DNA of 37,933 bases. Source: Nitrospirota bacterium. Its GTDB lineage: Bacteria; Nitrospirota; Thermodesulfovibrionia; UBA6902. Shown here in pieces: positions 546 to 17,006 of this stretch; position 1 is the first letter of the stretch; each line of letters begins with the position of its first letter. The notes beneath the pieces are model-generated. The model did no database searches. It was not told the DNA's origin and was given only the letters and a program-made list of their open reading frames with translations. Location: assembly GCA_016222905.1 (NCBI GenBank), contig JACRPZ010000050.1, forward strand, positions 1 through 37,933, read 5' to 3'. The position numbers and the translations under genes were made by a program.

Positions 546-576
546 AGTTTAGATGATTTTTTAAATGGAGGTATAT

Positions 577-1269
577 ATGAAGAGATTGATATTTGGAAGT
601 AAAAGCACCCCGCCTGATTCAGGAGGGGTGTTCGAAGTTTCGGGACGGGGTGGTAAGTGGTTGTTGCTCTTCTGCACTGTGGTTCTGCTGCTCTCCGGTA
701 CTGCCAATGCCTTCAATCTTCCCGACACAGGGCAGACGAAATGCTATCAAAGCGTCAGCCCTTTTGCTGAGATCCCCTGCGCCGGAACAGGTCAGGACGG
801 GGCGTACAACATTAACCCGATGAGTTTCACGAACAACGGCAACGGAACGATAACAGACAACAACACGGGACTGATGTGGCAGAAGTGCAGTGTCGGACAG
901 AACAACGATTCAACTTGCAGCGGCACGGCCCAGTATTACAACTGGTATAGGGCTTCGGGCACATATCACGCGACGTATAATCCATCTTCACAGTATGTCT
1001 GCGGTGAGAGGACGACAGGCGGTTACACAGACTGGCGTCTGCCGTCCAAGAAGGAACTGATAACGATTGTGGATTATTCAATCCCATATCCGGGACCGAC
1101 AATAAATACAACATATTTTCCGAATACAGTAGCGTCCGCCTACTGGTCGTCTACTACCTACGCCTACTATCCGAGCTTCGCGTGGTACGTGGGCTTCTCC
1201 AATGGCTACGTCTTCATCAACTATAAGTACTATAGCCACTACGTGCGGTGTGTTCGGGGCGGACAGTGA
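577..1269 (+). CDS. Secreted DUF1566 protein with DGR-type variable C-terminus
   Basis: This is a 230-residue DUF1566 (Lcl C-terminal-like, C-type-lectin-fold relative) protein, probably a surface or secreted binding protein. I chose ATG 577 over ATG 565 because the GGAGG at 567-571 sits correctly before it. A hydrophobic segment (about residues 29-46, LLLF to ANA) looks like a signal peptide. It is preceded by an unusual charged and Pro/Gly-rich stretch encoded by a palindrome (606-630). Family motifs include NNGNGT, TGLMW and TDWRLP. The last 41 codons (1144-1266, TGG to CAG) match the paralogue at 1645. Fourteen codons differ between 1174 and 1239, always in base 1 or 2 and never in base 3, as expected for adenine-directed DGR mutagenesis. 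The ligand is unknown. Confidence 0.85.
   Translation: MKRLIFGSKSTPPDSGGVFEVSGRGGKWLLLFCTVVLLLSGTANAFNLPDTGQTKCYQSVSPFAEIPCAGTGQDGAYNINPMSFTNNGNGTITDNNTGLMWQKCSVGQNNDSTCSGTAQYYNWYRASGTYHATYNPSSQYVCGERTTGGYTDWRLPSKKELITIVDYSIPYPGPTINTTYFPNTVASAYWSSTTYAYYPSFAWYVGFSNGYVFINYKYYSHYVRCVRGGQ
606..630 (+). repeat. Palindrome inside signal-peptide region
   Basis: CACCCC (606-611) pairs with GGGGTG (625-630), and CCTGA (613-617) with TCAGG (619-623). The hairpin is translated in frame as STPPDSGGV, between the basic start and the hydrophobic core of the signal peptide of the gene at 577. This resembles a palindromic repeat inserted into a coding region. The parallel gene at 1645 lacks it and has a normal short n-region. 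Confidence 0.6.
1144..1266 (+). repeat. DGR-like variable region 1
   Basis: This 41-codon segment corresponds codon for codon to 1963-2085. Fourteen codons differ non-synonymously by 19 substitutions, all at first or second positions. Every variable codon ends in C or T, and the third base is the same in both copies. Each is derivable from an AAC or AAT template codon. Only two synonymous third-base differences (GCC/GCA, GGC/GGA) lie outside the variable codons. The constant end encodes YVRCVRGGQ. I see no template repeat in the window. Confidence 0.85.
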
Positions 1270-1289
1270 GGAACGGCAGAGGAACAGCG

Positions 1290-1429
1290 CAATAGAGCAG
1301 TAGCACAGTAGAGCAGTAGAACGGCCGGAAGGACAAAAGATAACGAAATGGAGTACAACAGAAGACAAGAACAACAGAGCAGCAGGTCAGTAGTTTTTAC
1401 TGCTGCTCTATTGCTCTACTGGTCTATTG
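1290..1429. repeat. Inverted pair of 8-bp unit arrays (CARTAGAG)
   Basis: This fills most of the 375-bp gap between the two DUF1566 genes. On the plus strand 1290-1321 is four octamers (CAATAGAG, CAGTAGCA, CAGTAGAG, CAGTAGAA). From 1406 to 1429 the same unit runs on the opposite strand (CTCTATTG, CTCTACTG, GTCTATTG). The facing arrays can pair, and an additional 10-bp stem (1376-1385 with 1400-1409) lies at the inner edge. No gene is seen in the gap. The stretch 1430-1633 shows nothing further that I recognise. Confidence 0.7.
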
Positions 1430-1644
1430 ATCTGGGCATCAGGATTAACTTATGATGGCTAATAACTTTGACAGAGAGGTGACTTTGACGCCGTTAACGG
1501 CGGCCACGCTTTGCCGCCCTGACTTCTTTTATTGCTTCAGAGATGTAAGCTTCAATCTCTTCCGGGGAGAATTTTGCGGTTTGTTTATGTAATGATGGAA
1601 TAAATATAAATAGATATAAACTGACTATATACAGGGAGGGATTT

Positions 1645-2853
1645 ATGAGGAGAAAGATATTTTTTATTTTGGTTGCGGCGCTGTGGCTCTGCTGCTCTGC
1701 CGCGCTATCCTTTGCCGCGCCTTTCACGAACAACGGCAACGGGACGGTGACTGATAATCAAACGGGACTTGTGTGGCAGCAGTCAGAGCCGGGATATATG
1801 ACATGGGGTCCTGCTCTTTCGTACTGTAACGGGCTTTCCCTCGGAGGCAGGACTGACTGGCGTTTGCCGAACATAAAGGAACTTGAGTCCTTAACAGACG
1901 ATACGAGATATAACCCTGCTATAGATATCAATTACTTTCCGAATGCACATGCGTCCTACTACTGGTCGTCTACTACCTACGCATACTATCCGAACCTCGC
2001 GTGGGACGTGGACTTCTTCGATGGCCACGTCGACTACGGCAGTAAGGGCGATAGCTACTACGTGCGGTGTGTTCGGGGAGGACAGTCTGGGTCATTTGGT
2101 AATTTAGTAACCTACTACTACAACAGCATCCTTAACAGGGCACCTGAGCCCGGGGGAGCAGAGGGCTGGACATCAGAGATAGAGCGAATTGACTTGCTTG
2201 GCATAGATATAAAAGAGGGATTCATAGCCCTTGGCAAGCTCTTCCTAAACTCAGGAGAGTATCTGAATATGAATACAACAGATGATGCATATGTTATAGA
2301 TCTGTATGAGACCTTCCTCGGCAGGACACCGTCACAGTCAGAAGCGGATTACTGGGCAGGTGAGCTTTCAGGCGGATTAACACGAAACCTCTTATTAAAC
2401 TACTTCATATTCAGTCAGGAGTTCAGGCAATACATGACTGGCATATTCGGCGACACAACAGTAAGGCCTGAGCATAACCTTGTAAATGACCTCTACAGGG
2501 GATTTCTGAGCAGGCTGCCTGACGACGCCGGGTTCAACTACTTACTTGGAGAGATGCAGACAGCTCAGTGCAGTGGTAATGCTCAGGCGATAAGAGACCT
2601 AACCAGTCAGATGGCATTAAACTTTCTTAACAGTCAGGAGTACGCGGACAGGAATACGAGCAACAGCGAGTATATAGAAGACCTGTATAACGGGATACTC
2701 AGAAGAGGCGCGGAGCTTGCGAGTTACCAGGCATGGCTTGGAGCGCTCAACGGAGGCGCCTATACAAGGGCGGAGATGCTGCAGCTTTTTGTGAACTCAG
2801 CGGAGTTTCAGGCAAGGGTGCAACAGGTCATTGATGCGGGGTGCAGCCCTTAA
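1645..2853 (+). CDS. Secreted DUF1566-DUF4214 protein with internal DGR-type variable region
   Basis: A 402-residue secreted protein. ATG 1645 follows a clear AGGGAGG. Residues 1-25 form a signal peptide ending AALSFAA. Residues 26-147 are a DUF1566 domain (NNGNGTVT, TGLVWQ, TDWRLP) closely related to the gene at 577. The variable region (1963-2085) ends in YVRCVRGGQ. Unlike most DGR targets the protein then continues. Residues about 153-400 contain four DUF4214-like helical repeats (YYNSILNR, LYETFLGR, LYRGFLSR, LYNGILRR), a type seen in secreted or S-layer-associated proteins. The likely role is a surface-displayed binding protein with a diversified ligand face and a helical attachment region. 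Partner and ligand are unknown. Confidence 0.85.
   Translation: MRRKIFFILVAALWLCCSAALSFAAPFTNNGNGTVTDNQTGLVWQQSEPGYMTWGPALSYCNGLSLGGRTDWRLPNIKELESLTDDTRYNPAIDINYFPNAHASYYWSSTTYAYYPNLAWDVDFFDGHVDYGSKGDSYYVRCVRGGQSGSFGNLVTYYYNSILNRAPEPGGAEGWTSEIERIDLLGIDIKEGFIALGKLFLNSGEYLNMNTTDDAYVIDLYETFLGRTPSQSEADYWAGELSGGLTRNLLLNYFIFSQEFRQYMTGIFGDTTVRPEHNLVNDLYRGFLSRLPDDAGFNYLLGEMQTAQCSGNAQAIRDLTSQMALNFLNSQEYADRNTSNSEYIEDLYNGILRRGAELASYQAWLGALNGGAYTRAEMLQLFVNSAEFQARVQQVIDAGCSP
1963..2085 (+). repeat. DGR-like variable region 2
   Basis: Partner of 1144-1266. Its variable codons (1993-2058) are AAC, CTC, GAC, GAC, TTC, GAT, CAC, GAC, TAC, GGC, AGT, GGC, GAT and TAC. These face AGC, TTC, TAC, GGC, TCC, AAT, TAC, TTC, ATC, AAC, TAT, TAC, TAT and CAC in copy 1. 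The intervening codons (GCG TGG, GTG, GGC, GTC, AAG and the GTG CGG TGT GTT CGG end) are identical. The region is internal to the protein rather than at its C-terminus. Confidence 0.85.
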
Positions 2854-3027: not shown

Positions 3028-4566
3028 CTACTCCCATTCAATCGTGCCGGGAGGTTTGGAGCTTATATCGAATACGACCCTGTTTACGCCTGTAACTTCG
3101 TTGATTATCCTGTTTGAGATTATTCCAAGCAGATCATACGGCAGCTTTGACCAGTCAGCGGTCATCCCGTCGAGGCTGTTCACCGCTCTTACGGCAATGA
3201 CATTCTCATAAGTCCTCTCATCGCCCATAACACCTACGGTCTTTATAGGCAAAAGGACTGCAAATGCCTGCCAGATGCTGTTATAGAGCCCTGCCTTCTT
3301 TATCTCCTCTATGACTATGGCATCTGCTTTTCTGAGTATTTCACATCTTTCGGGTGTGACTTCCCCGATGACCCTTATCGCAAGACCGGGGCCCGGAAAG
3401 GGATGCCGGTTGAGTATATCTTCAGGCATCCCAAGTTCTCTCCCAAGCGCCCTAACTTCATCCTTAAAGAGCTCGCGCAATGGTTCAACAAGTGCAAGCT
3501 TCATATTATCCAGAAGGCCTCCGACATTATGGTGGCTCTTTATAATAGCCGAGGGACCTTTGAATGAGGTGCTTTCAATAACATCGGGATACAATGTGCC
3601 CTGCGCAAGAAATTTTACGCCTTTGATCTTCTTTGCCTGAGCCTCAAAGACCCTGATGAATTCATTGCCGATGATCTTTCTCTTTTTTTCAGGGTCGCTG
3701 ACACCCTTGAGTTTGCCGAGGAACCTTTTTGATTCATCAACGCAGATTATGTTCATGCGGAAGTGTTTCTTAAGTGTCTCTTCAACCTTTGTTGCCTCGC
3801 CGGTTCTCAACACGCCGTTATCAACGAAGACGCAGGTGAGCTGCTTCTTTACTGCCCTGTGCATCAGGACTGCTGTAACTGCCGAGTCCACGCCGCCGCT
3901 TATGGCGCAGACAACCTTGCTTTTTCCCACCTTCTTCTTTATATCCCTTGTCGCAGACTCAATAAAGGATTCCATTGTCCATCCGGCTCTGCATTTGCAA
4001 ACCTTGAAAATGAAGTTCTTCAGCATCTCTTTGCCGTACTCGGTATGTACAACCTCCGGATGAAACTGGAATGCGAAGAAACTCCTCTTCTTATCAGCCA
4101 TCGCAGCAACAGGTGAATTATCGGTGCACGCAATAGGCTCAAAGCCGGAAGGCCTGCGAAGGATCTTGTCGCCGTGACTCATCCAGACAACTTTGTTTTG
4201 AGGGATGCTCTTAAATAGATCTTTTCTATCAGCAATCTTAAGGACAGCCCTGCCATACTCGCGTTTACTGCTTCTGGCGACCTTTCCGCCGAAGACTTGC
4301 GCCATTAACTGCATGCCGTAACATATGCCGAGAACAGGGACCCCCAGCTCAAAAATCCTCTTGTCAGGAATAGGGGCGTTCTTTTCATAGATGCTTGAGG
4401 GGCCGCCTGAGAGGATTATCCCTTTGGGCGAAAAAGCCTTGATGCTGTCAAACGGGGCATTATACGGCAGTATCTCCGAGTAGACATGATTCTCCCTTAT
4501 GCGCCTTGCTATAAGCTGCGTATATTGTGAGCCAAAATCCAGGACTAATACATTCTCTTCATGCAT
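3028..4566 (-). CDS. guaA: GMP synthase (glutamine-hydrolysing)
   Basis: Makes GMP from XMP, glutamine and ATP in the cytoplasm. The 512 residues are normal full length. The N-terminal class I glutamine amidotransferase has the triad Cys82 (GICYGMQ) with His169 and Glu171 (FHPE). The ATP pyrophosphatase domain begins near residue 215 with the P-loop SGGVDS (223-228). The C-terminal dimerisation domain ends in KPPGTIEWE. It lies 4 bp after guaB on the same strand, so the two are surely one operon feeding IMP to GMP. Its last 47 bp, including the stop, are the intact copy of the direct repeat whose decayed partner is at 159-205. Its stop faces the DUF1566 block convergently. Confidence 0.98.
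3029..3075. repeat. Intact guaA 3'-end repeat (att-like)
   Basis: This is the functional member of the direct-repeat pair with 159-205 (40 of 47 identical, same orientation). Together the two copies bracket about 2.8 kb of accessory DNA holding the two DUF1566 genes. An island entering at the 3' end of guaA would keep guaA whole on one side and leave a partial copy on the other, which is what is seen. Confidence 0.75.
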
Positions 4567-7344: not shown

Positions 7345-7653
7345 TCACCTTTGTTCTTTTTCCCATAATGTCTTTAAGTCTCTCCTCCCATGGATAAGAC
7401 CCAAAATATCAACACGTACTTCTTCAACATGGTAAATAAGACGATAATTCTTTATGAAAAGTTCACGGATAGAAGGATTTGACAACTCAGGAACAAGACG
7501 GCCTCGTTCTGAAAATTCATTTAGGGAGCGGCTTGCTTCACGGACTTCTATAACAAATGATGCCGCATAAAAAGTGGAATCTTTTGCAATATAATCGGCA
7601 ATCGTTTCGAGGTCAGCAGTTGCTTCGTAAGACCAGATTACTGTTCGAGCCAT
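7345..7653 (-). CDS. ParE/RelE-family toxin
   Basis: A 102-residue type II toxin of the RelE/ParE superfamily. The small fold is signalled by the pattern WSYEATADLETIADYI, SFVIEVREA, GRLVPEL, IRELFIKNYRLIYHV and ILGLIHGRRDL. It reads more like ParE (a gyrase poison) than RelE, since the conserved Arg in IRELFIKNYR and the C-terminal HGRRDL are ParE-like, but mechanism cannot be settled from sequence alone. Its start overlaps the end of the antitoxin gene by 16 bp, giving translational coupling. It lies between housekeeping genes and beside the ychF-flanked cassette, a typical accessory location. Confidence 0.85.
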   Translation of the reverse strand: MARTVIWSYEATADLETIADYIAKDSTFYAASFVIEVREASRSLNEFSERGRLVPELSNPSIRELFIKNYRLIYHVEEVRVDILGLIHGRRDLKTLWEKEQR

Positions 7654-7826
7654 TTTGACATCTTTTTCTCAACTTCTTCCTGTGAATAAAAGCGCCCTTC
7701 CTCTATATCTTTTAAGCCGCGTTCAATTTTCTGAAGGACATAAAGATGATATTGAACATCCTCTAAGGTACAATCATCCGGCAAACGATTGAGAAGTTCG
7801 CTCACCTCTTGTTTGGCTGTTTGCAT
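7638..7826 (-). CDS. Antitoxin of the ParE-type pair
   Basis: A 62-residue acidic protein upstream of and overlapping the toxin gene. It is helix-rich (VQYHLYVLQKIERGLKDIEEGR) with a C-terminal segment EEVEKKMSKWL resembling toxin-wrapping tails of small antitoxins. I see no clear N-terminal ribbon-helix-helix or HTH signature, so autoregulation is inferred only from position. A purine-rich AAGGGGGG ribosome site precedes ATG 7826, and a TATAAT-like element sits about 15 bp further up. The family name is uncertain; the role follows from the gene order. Confidence 0.75.
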   Translation of the reverse strand: MQTAKQEVSELLNRLPDDCTLEDVQYHLYVLQKIERGLKDIEEGRFYSQEEVEKKMSKWLEQ

Positions 7827-13846: not shown

Positions 13847-15787
13847 TTATGAAGGAGAAAAGTCGACTGACCATTTAGTACGTGCCGATATCTCCTTATA
13901 ATGAAAATCCAGTTTACTACTTTTTGTTCTGCCAAGGTGTGTTATTGTTTCGAATACTTTTTGAGCTATTTTTTTATTATCGGTCGAACTGGCAGCATAT
14001 AATTGAGGTAAACGCTTTATTATTGTATTGTCCTGAACTCTACCTTTATGTATCTGTGCTAATTCAGTAAAAGAAAAATCCTTGTCTGAACATATACTTT
14101 CCAAGTATTGTGATAGACGTAAGACTTCTGAATCAGGATGCATAGTAAGTTCTCGGAGATGCTTCCTCACTTTATCTTTAGGTGCCCTTGTTAACAATGC
14201 TACGGCAGCTCTCCGCACTAAAGTATTTTGGTGCTTAATATAGTTTAGAGCGATCCTAAATATAAACTTCTCTTGATAAGGAAAAGACATGAGCGCTTCT
14301 AATGCTTTCTGAATAACAAACCAGTCATTATTTTTCTTTAGGTTCGATCCGAAGGCATAACTTCTAATTCTGGATCCGATCCCCTTTGCATCTAAAGGGT
14401 GAAATAACACCATTGCTTCTAAAACTGTCGCTATTTGATATGGGAACAAAAGAGTTCCAGCTTCCAAAGCGCTTAAAAGCTCATTTATTGATTGGCTGTG
14501 AGTTTTGTAGTCAAGATGAGTTAAATATGAAAGACATCTGCGTAGAATTCGCAGATCCGGCAACTCAGCTATTGCACAAAAAATGGCCTTACTAAGACCT
14601 TTGCGAGTCCTTCCGGCTATCCCGTATGTTGCAAGCAATCTTCTAAATAGACGGTTTTCCTTACCTGTTAACCCACGAACAGAGTCGGGCAACCCCACGG
14701 TAAAAGGCTTGCAATATCCTGATATTTTATTAAGTTCTGCGGAAATTTCTCCTGATGATTTTTTCTGCAAAGACAGTTTTTTTATGTTATCAAAAACATC
14801 ATTTACCCTGTCCATTTTGGTTGTATCATGCTCTTGATAAAAACGTTCACCATAAAGAATCTCTGTTTTGCTGCCTTGTAGATTTAGATGCAACTGCCGT
14901 AGCGCTTCGTTAATAATAAATACGGCTTCCCGAGCATTTTTCTCGCTTTTTGTGTATACCTTTACATCATCAACATACCTAAACCATCTGCCCCCATTTG
15001 AAGAGCAAAATTTATTCAATGCTCTATCCAAAGGAATTAAGTAAATATTTCCGAGAAATGAGCTAACATCGTTACCTTGTGGAATGCCACGTGTAATGGG
15101 CATGCCTGCACTTGACGATCTTGTCCAACCGCTCATTATCCTGAAGAGCAACTGAAGAATCTTTTCTTCCTCTGTCTTGAGCAGCGATCGAATTAAGTCG
15201 TGAAGCAACCTAAGATCAATATTTTCAAAGTATGATGAAATATCTGTTTTTGTTAAATGTGTATAACCTTCTTTTTCGACGCTATCTTTAGCATCTTTCT
15301 CAAAAGCCGGCCATCGTTCATACCAAGCCTCAAAGGGGTTGATTGAATGAATTGTGCGACTTTTAAGGAAAGGAAGATCAATGTCAATTTCACGAAATAG
15401 GGATTCCCCCTTTTTTGCTTTTTTCTCCCATTCTTGATGCAATCTATATGAATACACAGAATCAGACAATTTTTTGTCGAGCTTAGGTGAAAGGAGATAA
15501 ATAATAGAGTGAAGTATTGATGCCTCTTCTATCGGAAGGACATTTCCAGGTCGAACACTCAATCCAGATTTTGGTACGTCAACTTCAATTAGATGACGTG
15601 GCCTATAACGATGAGCTTCAACCTGTTCTATCAAATAGAATAAACGGTCAGACAGGTTACTAGCGTAATCTGCATATCCAACAGGATCACGCACAAAATC
15701 ATCACGGCTGTCACCTTGGGCAAGGTGCCAGCCAATTCTTATGATTTCTGGCCTGCAAAGCTCTTTGAATAATTGATCGTTAGACAT
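13847..15787 (-). CDS. Reverse transcriptase with C-terminal helical repeats (Abi/UG-like)
   Basis: A 646-residue RNA-directed polymerase. The palm motifs are TDISSYFENID (first aspartate Asp182), GIPQGNDVSS (234-243) and YVDD (271-274), so all catalytic aspartates are present. An N-terminal region of about 170 residues precedes the palm. Residues about 380-640 look like alpha-helical HEAT-type repeats (VRRAAVALLTRA, LRELTMHPDSEVLRL) in place of maturase or endonuclease domains. That architecture is typical of Abi and 'unknown group' defence RTs. Motif 4 lacks the SQ of DGR RTs, and no intron domain is present. The neighbour upstream is a Fic gene 64 bp away. Flanks of 46 and 64 bp leave little room for a separate non-coding RNA. 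Confidence 0.85.
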   Translation of the reverse strand: MSNDQLFKELCRPEIIRIGWHLAQGDSRDDFVRDPVGYADYASNLSDRLFYLIEQVEAHRYRPRHLIEVDVPKSGLSVRPGNVLPIEEASILHSIIYLLSPKLDKKLSDSVYSYRLHQEWEKKAKKGESLFREIDIDLPFLKSRTIHSINPFEAWYERWPAFEKDAKDSVEKEGYTHLTKTDISSYFENIDLRLLHDLIRSLLKTEEEKILQLLFRIMSGWTRSSSAGMPITRGIPQGNDVSSFLGNIYLIPLDRALNKFCSSNGGRWFRYVDDVKVYTKSEKNAREAVFIINEALRQLHLNLQGSKTEILYGERFYQEHDTTKMDRVNDVFDNIKKLSLQKKSSGEISAELNKISGYCKPFTVGLPDSVRGLTGKENRLFRRLLATYGIAGRTRKGLSKAIFCAIAELPDLRILRRCLSYLTHLDYKTHSQSINELLSALEAGTLLFPYQIATVLEAMVLFHPLDAKGIGSRIRSYAFGSNLKKNNDWFVIQKALEALMSFPYQEKFIFRIALNYIKHQNTLVRRAAVALLTRAPKDKVRKHLRELTMHPDSEVLRLSQYLESICSDKDFSFTELAQIHKGRVQDNTIIKRLPQLYAASSTDNKKIAQKVFETITHLGRTKSSKLDFHYKEISARTKWSVDFSPS

Positions 15788-15851: not shown

Positions 15852-17006
15852 TTATTTACGCTCCGGCAGAAATGACAGCATTATTATTTTGTTCGCAACG
15901 TAACCGTTTCCTTCTCGACGGATCAGGTTGTGTTTTAGCAGATAAGCAACATCACGGCTAATGGTTCTTTGCGTTTTTGTAGCGTACAATTCTGCTATCC
16001 GTGGGCTAACCTGATGGAGCTTGGCCAGCAGAATAGGCTCTTTATGCGCAGATAGATCCAAAACAAGTTTCCTGAGGCGTTCATTTATCTTTCCCGTTTT
16101 GTCTCTGAAATGTTCATAAATAAAATCTCGCCATGCAACGAGTAACTGCTGCTGCTGAATGACCTTAAGCTGCGAACGCAAGCCGTCAACAAAACCTTCT
16201 ACCGCATATTGAATAAAGGGAATGATGTCGCCTTTTGATTTGCTCGCATGGTCGAGCTGACGGTAATATTCGGTCCTTGTAAGGTTATAATGATTGCTCA
16301 GAAGGTGCGCCGCAGGAGTGGGGATGCCGGAGGAGAGAAGTATCTTGAATTCAAGCAGCCTAGCGGTGCGGCCGTTCCCATCTCCGAAGGGATGAATCCA
16401 CGCGATATAAAGGTGAGCAACGATAGCGCGCAGAACGCCATAAGCGATTCGATGTTCCTGCGGGTTAAAATCTTTTTCATTCAACCATTCGCACATGCGC
16501 CGCAGCAGATATTCGCAATCCTCGGCAGGAGCTCCACGATAACTGGCGACTCCGACTGAATATTTTCTGATCTCTCCGGGCACAATTTCTTTCCCGAGTT
16601 CAAGGCCCTCTAAAACTATCTTGTTGAACGTCTTGATTTCATCTGCAGACAAGTCATCTGCGCTGCCTTTCATCAGTTGTTCCCCTATATTGTTACAGCC
16701 TTTCACGATATTATCGACTTCTTTCCCGAGGTATTCCCTTGAAGGAGGCAATGCAAGCTTTCCCTCAATTCGCTCAATGACCTCTTCTTCAGACAGGGTG
16801 TTCCCCTCAATTGCTGTGGTAGCTCTCACCCCTTTTGCAAGGTACAACATATGGAGATTTTCTGCTGTGGCAGGTTGTAGTGGTACGCCAGAGATATGCT
16901 CACATTTTGAATCGGCTTCTCCAAGAGCCATCCAAATCTTATGATTTAACCTTCTCAAATCAAGTTGAAATGATAACCAAGGATGTGTCTTCTCAAATGT
17001 CTTCAT
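15852..17006 (-). CDS. Fic-domain protein with winged-helix C-terminus
   Basis: A 384-residue Fic protein, an enzyme class that usually transfers AMP from ATP to target hydroxyls. The catalytic motif is HPFGDGNGRTAR (205-216), with every key residue present. An N-terminal inhibitory helix motif, TTAIEG (63-68), fits [ST]xxxE[GN], so this is a class II, self-inhibited Fic. The C-terminal 100 residues include a winged-helix-like segment (TKTQRTISRDVAYLLKHNLI), which may bind DNA or a partner. It precedes the RT gene and probably shares its transcript. Chromosomal Fic proteins often act as toxins or phage-response effectors, but the target here is unknown. Confidence 0.9.
   Translation of the reverse strand: MKTFEKTHPWLSFQLDLRRLNHKIWMALGEADSKCEHISGVPLQPATAENLHMLYLAKGVRATTAIEGNTLSEEEVIERIEGKLALPPSREYLGKEVDNIVKGCNNIGEQLMKGSADDLSADEIKTFNKIVLEGLELGKEIVPGEIRKYSVGVASYRGAPAEDCEYLLRRMCEWLNEKDFNPQEHRIAYGVLRAIVAHLYIAWIHPFGDGNGRTARLLEFKILLSSGIPTPAAHLLSNHYNLTRTEYYRQLDHASKSKGDIIPFIQYAVEGFVDGLRSQLKVIQQQQLLVAWRDFIYEHFRDKTGKINERLRKLVLDLSAHKEPILLAKLHQVSPRIAELYATKTQRTISRDVAYLLKHNLIRREGNGYVANKIIMLSFLPERK

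Follow-up and report, generated by a model that had tools for sequence, protein, structure and literature searches.

Two DUF1566 genes of a Nitrospirota bacterium are very probably remote targets of a diversity-generating retroelement encoded on another contig

Two neighbouring DUF1566 genes of a Nitrospirota bacterium share a repeat whose copies differ in the first two bases of particular codons and keep the third. What process rewrites these codons, and from where does it act? The window, that is, the whole stretch of 37,933 nucleotides that was analysed, is the entire contig C29 of a 2.84 Mb genome in 90 contigs (bin completeness 100, contamination 1.53). An initial annotation, made with no template in view, had assigned the repeats to a diversity-generating retroelement (DGR), a known kind of element in which an unchanging template is copied and random errors arise wherever it has an A. 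Here, a template repeat, a reverse transcriptase (RT) and a bAvd gene were found on a second contig of this genome, C53, and the two window genes are very probably remote targets of a single DGR with its core on that contig.

The target genes and their variable repeats

The features of the window are as follows.

565-1269, plus strand: target gene 1, 234 aa; Lcl_C (DUF1566) domain at residues 94-231 (Pfam PF07603, 5e-34)
1132-1267, plus strand: variable repeat 1 (VR1), at the 3' end of gene 1; 82% identity to the C53 template over the whole 136 bases
1241-1267, plus strand: conserved 3' segment of VR1, in the IMH position; C to T at 1251 relative to the template copy
1645-2853, plus strand: target gene 2, 402 aa; Lcl_C domain (33-144) and DUF4214 repeats (PF07603, 2.7e-39; PF13946, 9.4e-39)
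1720-2085, plus strand: Lcl_C domain of gene 2, with a C-type-lectin-like fold in an AlphaFold2 model
1951-2086, plus strand: VR2, inside gene 2 at the end of the Lcl_C domain; 82% identity to the template
2060-2086, plus strand: conserved 3' segment of VR2, in the IMH position; mismatches to the template at 2070 and 2079

Both gene products have a hydrophobic stretch at the N-terminus, which in gene 1 is a likely signal peptide as judged by eye, and both are probably exported. In each gene, the Lcl_C domain ends at the VR (Pfam). The AlphaFold2 model of the gene 2 domain has a pLDDT of 95 and a pTM of 0.87, and its best PDB match is 8q4e, the C-terminal domain of Legionella Lcl (E 2.6e-4, TM 0.66), followed by C-type lectins. 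The 20 variable residues map to the last three strands of this model and to their loops. For gene 1, the model of the domain reached a pLDDT of 56 and was discarded, and a search of its sequence alone against the PDB gave no match. DUF1566/Lcl_C, with its C-type-lectin fold, is reported to be the commonest Pfam domain of DGR target genes (PMC6642488), which, together with the gene 2 model, agrees with what the initial annotation had said of this family. Given the placement of the variable residues at the end of a C-type-lectin-like domain, in its final three strands with their loops, and the probable export of the proteins, the likely outcome of diversification is a binding surface that varies. 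Family members outside the DGR also exist in this genome: a 3305-aa open frame at C58:16997-18796 (L072) has four Lcl_C domains, none of which matches the template.

The initial annotation had aligned 1144-1266 with 1963-2085. These intervals lie within the repeat, which extends further at its 5' side to span 1132-1267 and 1951-2086, and the added part includes a codon, 1138-1140, that also differs between VR1 and VR2. A recount over the shorter intervals gave 21 differences. Of these, 19 affect the first or second base of a codon and are spread over exactly 14 codons, the numbers originally reported; all 14 codons end in C or T and have the same third base in both copies. That every change affects position 1 or 2 is correct for these 19, and it does not extend to two third-base differences outside the variable codons. 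One is at 1164/1983 (GCC/GCA), where the template base is A, and thus fits adenine mutagenesis; the other, at 1260/2079 (GGC/GGA), is in the conserved 3' end.

Codon comparison shows gene 1 to be a paralogue of the target gene within the C53 cassette, and gene 2 to be a paralogue of both ends of a 1259-aa C53 target gene, so that the sequence outside the VRs could serve as a control. Gene 1 and its paralogue differ in this flank (531 bases) at 31, 25 and 62 sites in codon positions 1, 2 and 3, respectively, whereas the counts inside the 132-base VR are 10, 8 and 1 (Fisher test for third positions, p ~9e-5). For gene 2, the counts are 16, 13 and 38 outside the VR (303 bases) and 12, 8 and 2 inside it. 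Ordinary divergence in these genes is therefore biased to the third base, as the initial annotation had expected, and the VR escapes it.

Downstream of the pair is guaA (3028-4566, minus strand), the 3' end of which (3029-3075) is repeated at 159-205 with 85% identity over 47 bases, so that both target genes sit between direct repeats. In 29 relatives, the 1.5 kb next to guaA yielded no DUF1566 pair; one motif match, in L101, stands apart. The lack of DUF1566 genes beside guaA in relatives suggests that the target pair is an insertion at the guaA 3' end. In some relatives, the guaA frames are longer and possibly bear inserts.

The template and its cassette on C53

When the genome was searched with VR1, nine matching sites were found on C29, C53, C25 and C46, and a single one of these, C53:9010-9145, is a template repeat. 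The cassette around it has, in minus-strand order, the following parts.

C53:10286-10648, minus strand: bAvd gene (PF22296 bAvd, 41.4 bits against a cut-off of 40)
C53:9534-10220, minus strand: Lcl_C target gene of the cassette
C53:9010-9145, minus strand: template repeat, with AAC or AAT at 20 of 20 variable codons
C53:7012-9075, minus strand: DGR reverse transcriptase, with PIGNLTSQ and YVDD motifs, adjoining the template
C53:6495-2716, minus strand: 1259-aa target gene with Lcl_C, LCAT, TSP3 and DUF4214 domains

The initial annotation had predicted mutagenesis of adenines in AAC or AAT codons, and had proposed that a template reading AAY at the variable codons and a DGR-type RT with the SQ motif be sought in the genome. 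Both were found, the RT directly behind the template, and the template does read AAY at each of the variable codons. VR1 departs from it at 24 positions, 22 of which are template adenines, and VR2 at 23, with 21 on adenines (enrichment over the whole VR, p 7e-11 and 3e-10, respectively). Within offsets 7-118, where adenines are 44 of 112 positions, the differences are on adenines without exception (22/22 for VR1 and 21/21 for VR2), and VR1 and VR2 differ from one another there only at template adenines (21/21; hypergeometric p ~7e-11).

The same pattern is seen elsewhere in the genome. In the two C53 VRs beside the template, all differences are on template adenines (17/17 and 19/19), and in VRs on C25 and C46 the fractions are 21/23, 20/26 and 22/31. 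The C25 protein (an open frame of 2040 aa) and the C46 protein (666 aa) have two VRs each; C46:11550 is a further, degenerate copy of the repeat. Overall, the template has matches in no fewer than eight VRs, which belong to six genes and are spread over four contigs, and the window pair is accordingly placed among its remote targets. As the DGR core is on a different contig from the window in a 90-contig assembly, it is the assembly or the bin that ties C53 to C29.

The C53 RT aligns with Brt of the Bordetella phage BPP-1, the PIGxLTSQ and YxDD blocks being common to both; BLASTP against Brt gave 9e-39 for the insert-free RT relative in L054. The bAvd gene is kept in relatives, and its product also matches the NCBIfam Avd model, below the cut-off of that model. 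No relative of the C53 RT was found among the viral contigs of IMG/VR, and phage records contained only distant DGR-type RTs with less than 60% identity, so that the element looks like a chromosomal DGR as opposed to a phage-borne one.

The genome has other RTs as well. The window itself encodes a 646-aa non-DGR RT (13847-15787, minus strand), which was considered as the DGR enzyme and rejected: it is of the UG21/DRT type (PADLOC RT_UG21, 2.8e-121, a candidate defence RT class) and has weak HEAT repeats at its C-terminus; the template, in addition, is on C53. It adjoins a Fic/DOC-family gene (15852-17006, minus strand; PADLOC SoFic, 9e-58), and the two possibly form one defence island. The RTs of C26 and C65 resemble, by eye, those of group II introns. 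An RT region on C28 (L002), with a TAG inside the matched frame, is directly upstream of a Cas1-like gene and is probably a CRISPR-associated RT.

Two other genomes of this family, G034 and G033, also have the cassette; their templates are 96% and 93% identical to that of C53, and the RT DNA adjoining the template 86% and 84% identical, respectively. Further members are found in Nitrospinota and Desulfobacterota MAGs, and relatives of the RT also in one Elusimicrobia MAG and one unclassified MAG. Every template-bearing cassette has adenine-diversified VRs that match its own template.

The replaced tract and alternative explanations

In BPP-1, reverse transcription of the template RNA places random bases opposite A, and the resulting cDNA is substituted for the VR on the upstream side of the IMH, a conserved 3' segment (PMC12875486). 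By analogy with this phage system, from which the retrohoming steps are taken, template-repeat RNA would be copied by the DGR RT with the help of bAvd, random bases would be put in opposite the template adenines during copying, and the cDNA would then take the place of both window VRs and of six or more others. Mutagenesis of AAC or AAT template codons alters the first two bases and leaves C or T as the third, which allows as many as 15 amino acids at each such codon and no stop codon.

The conserved segment TACGTGCGGTGYGTTCGGGGMGGA is present as a putative IMH, and the window VRs have one or two differences from its template copy. By their position, the conserved 3' segments would act as the IMH. 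A C-to-T change at offset 119 is common to both window VRs and is just inside this segment; that it was not overwritten is expected if replacement stops before the 3' segment. At the other end, non-A differences before offset 7 in several VRs place the 5' limit of the replaced tract, it seems, near offset 7. If the 3' segment is the IMH, its mismatches may make homing to the two window targets weaker. A stem-loop 3' of the IMH is an aid and no strict requirement (PMC12875486); a simple scan for a perfect stem of at least 6 with a loop of 3-9 after each of seven VRs found none.

It is conceivable, if rather unlikely, that DGR diversification belongs to the past and that the window genes are now relics, either their changed 3' segment or the insert-laden RT no longer working. 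Both window VRs mismatch the template in the 3' segment, and the C53 RT has three in-frame repeat inserts, which make its activity less than certain; the G033 RT has lost its C-terminal domain. Two of the inserts (C53:8310-8511 and 7653-7769, minus strand) are 91% alike, and their ends of about 25 bases are dispersed genome-wide. Against decay, the C53 RT frame is open and its catalytic motifs are intact. At the sites of the two larger inserts, G033 and G034 have inserts as well, from a different repeat family, and these relatives nevertheless keep matching templates and VRs. Further, neither window VR has a non-adenine difference at offsets 7-118, whereas the flanks are about 20% diverged from their paralogues. 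The DGR may still be active at present.

The divergence of the flanks also bears on a second possibility, that the window VRs were seeded by whole-gene duplication or recombination from the cassette, with their diversity inherited and no rewriting in place. The paralogy of gene 1 to the cassette gene and of gene 2 to the 1259-aa gene is in keeping with this, as is the absence of the pair beside guaA in 29 relatives, bar the one match in L101. At the flank rate, however, about 20% non-adenine differences would be expected in the VRs and offsets 7-118 have none, which makes this explanation very improbable; that the VRs match the template at non-A sites in spite of such flanks points instead to rewriting from the template after duplication. 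A third explanation, in which the genes are ordinary paralogues shaped by strong diversifying selection and no retroelement takes part, can be dismissed: the non-synonymous changes are all clustered in the putative binding surface, as selection would have it, and yet selection leaves unexplained why the differences are confined to sites where a separate, non-target copy has A (by coincidence, p ~1e-10 per VR), why third bases are frozen in the VR against 62 third-base changes in the flanks, and why the non-target copy adjoins a DGR RT and Avd. The reading of the two window genes as remote DGR targets draws on sequence evidence of five kinds: the template, RT, Avd, adenine bias and fold.

Relation to known systems and a MutS-like domain

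The BPP-1 DGR (brt, avd, TR and the mtd VR; NC_005357) resembles the C53 system in having the template directly upstream of the RT and Avd in the cassette, a homologous RT with LTSQ and the catalytic YxDD, adenine-specific VR differences, and a target, Mtd, with a C-type-lectin fold. It differs in that the C53 system is bacterial, lies outside a phage contig and has many targets, several of them remote. Moreover, the C53 Avd, though in the bAvd family, could not be aligned by BLASTP to phage Avd; a Brt-type spacer is absent at C53, where the RT frame opens inside the template, and the C53 RT is fused to MutS domain I.

A multi-target DGR with remote DUF1566 targets is of a type already known, and 28.6% of DGRs have multiple VRs (PMC6642488). 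No Nitrospirota case is given in the text of that paper. In Treponema denticola, similarly, one template serves two to seven target genes per isolate, some of them remote (PMC4891356). Those DGRs belong to another lineage and have an accessory protein of another type, for which HRDC is discussed (PMC4891356); here, six genes have at least eight VRs between them, and two of these genes have two VRs each.

The C-terminal part of the C53 RT corresponds to MutS domain I (PF01624, 3.5e-7, above the cut-off). Phmmer matched it to Taq MutS at 1.6e-7, and the Phe-x-Glu (FxE) motif, which in MutS reads mismatches, is kept as F-C-E. The domain is present in most RT relatives, across several phyla, and is partly degraded in two. 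A separate MutS-like DGR accessory protein named MSL also belongs to PF01624 (PMC10053308); the two cases differ in that MSL is encoded by its own accessory gene, whereas the domain here is part of the RT polypeptide. The fusion of an RT to MutS domain I may already have been described. Overlap of TR and RT as such is known from DiGReF group 3 (PMC3521204). At C53, the RT frame has just one standard start codon, which is inside the template (MATSTTTI...), an arrangement kept in six genomes; in more distant RT relatives, the start is just past the corresponding point of the template. A tentative proposal, possible rather than probable, is that a sub-lineage in Nitrospirota, Nitrospinota and Desulfobacterota is defined by a MutS-fused RT that keeps the Phe-x-Glu motif and starts in the template, whose RNA would then double as the beginning of the RT mRNA, and that the fused domain could hold or shield the mismatched cDNA/target duplex, which would keep mismatch repair from erasing the new mutations.

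Surveys restricted to the vicinity of the RT miss remote targets, which is a stated limit of such work (PMC8144416). The window targets could be recognised from their own sequence before the template or enzyme had been seen, and they would provide a clean example of one template rewriting many remote genes. They also point to a DGR lineage whose RT carries a MutS-like domain, through which the part that mismatch recognition plays in retrohoming could be tested.
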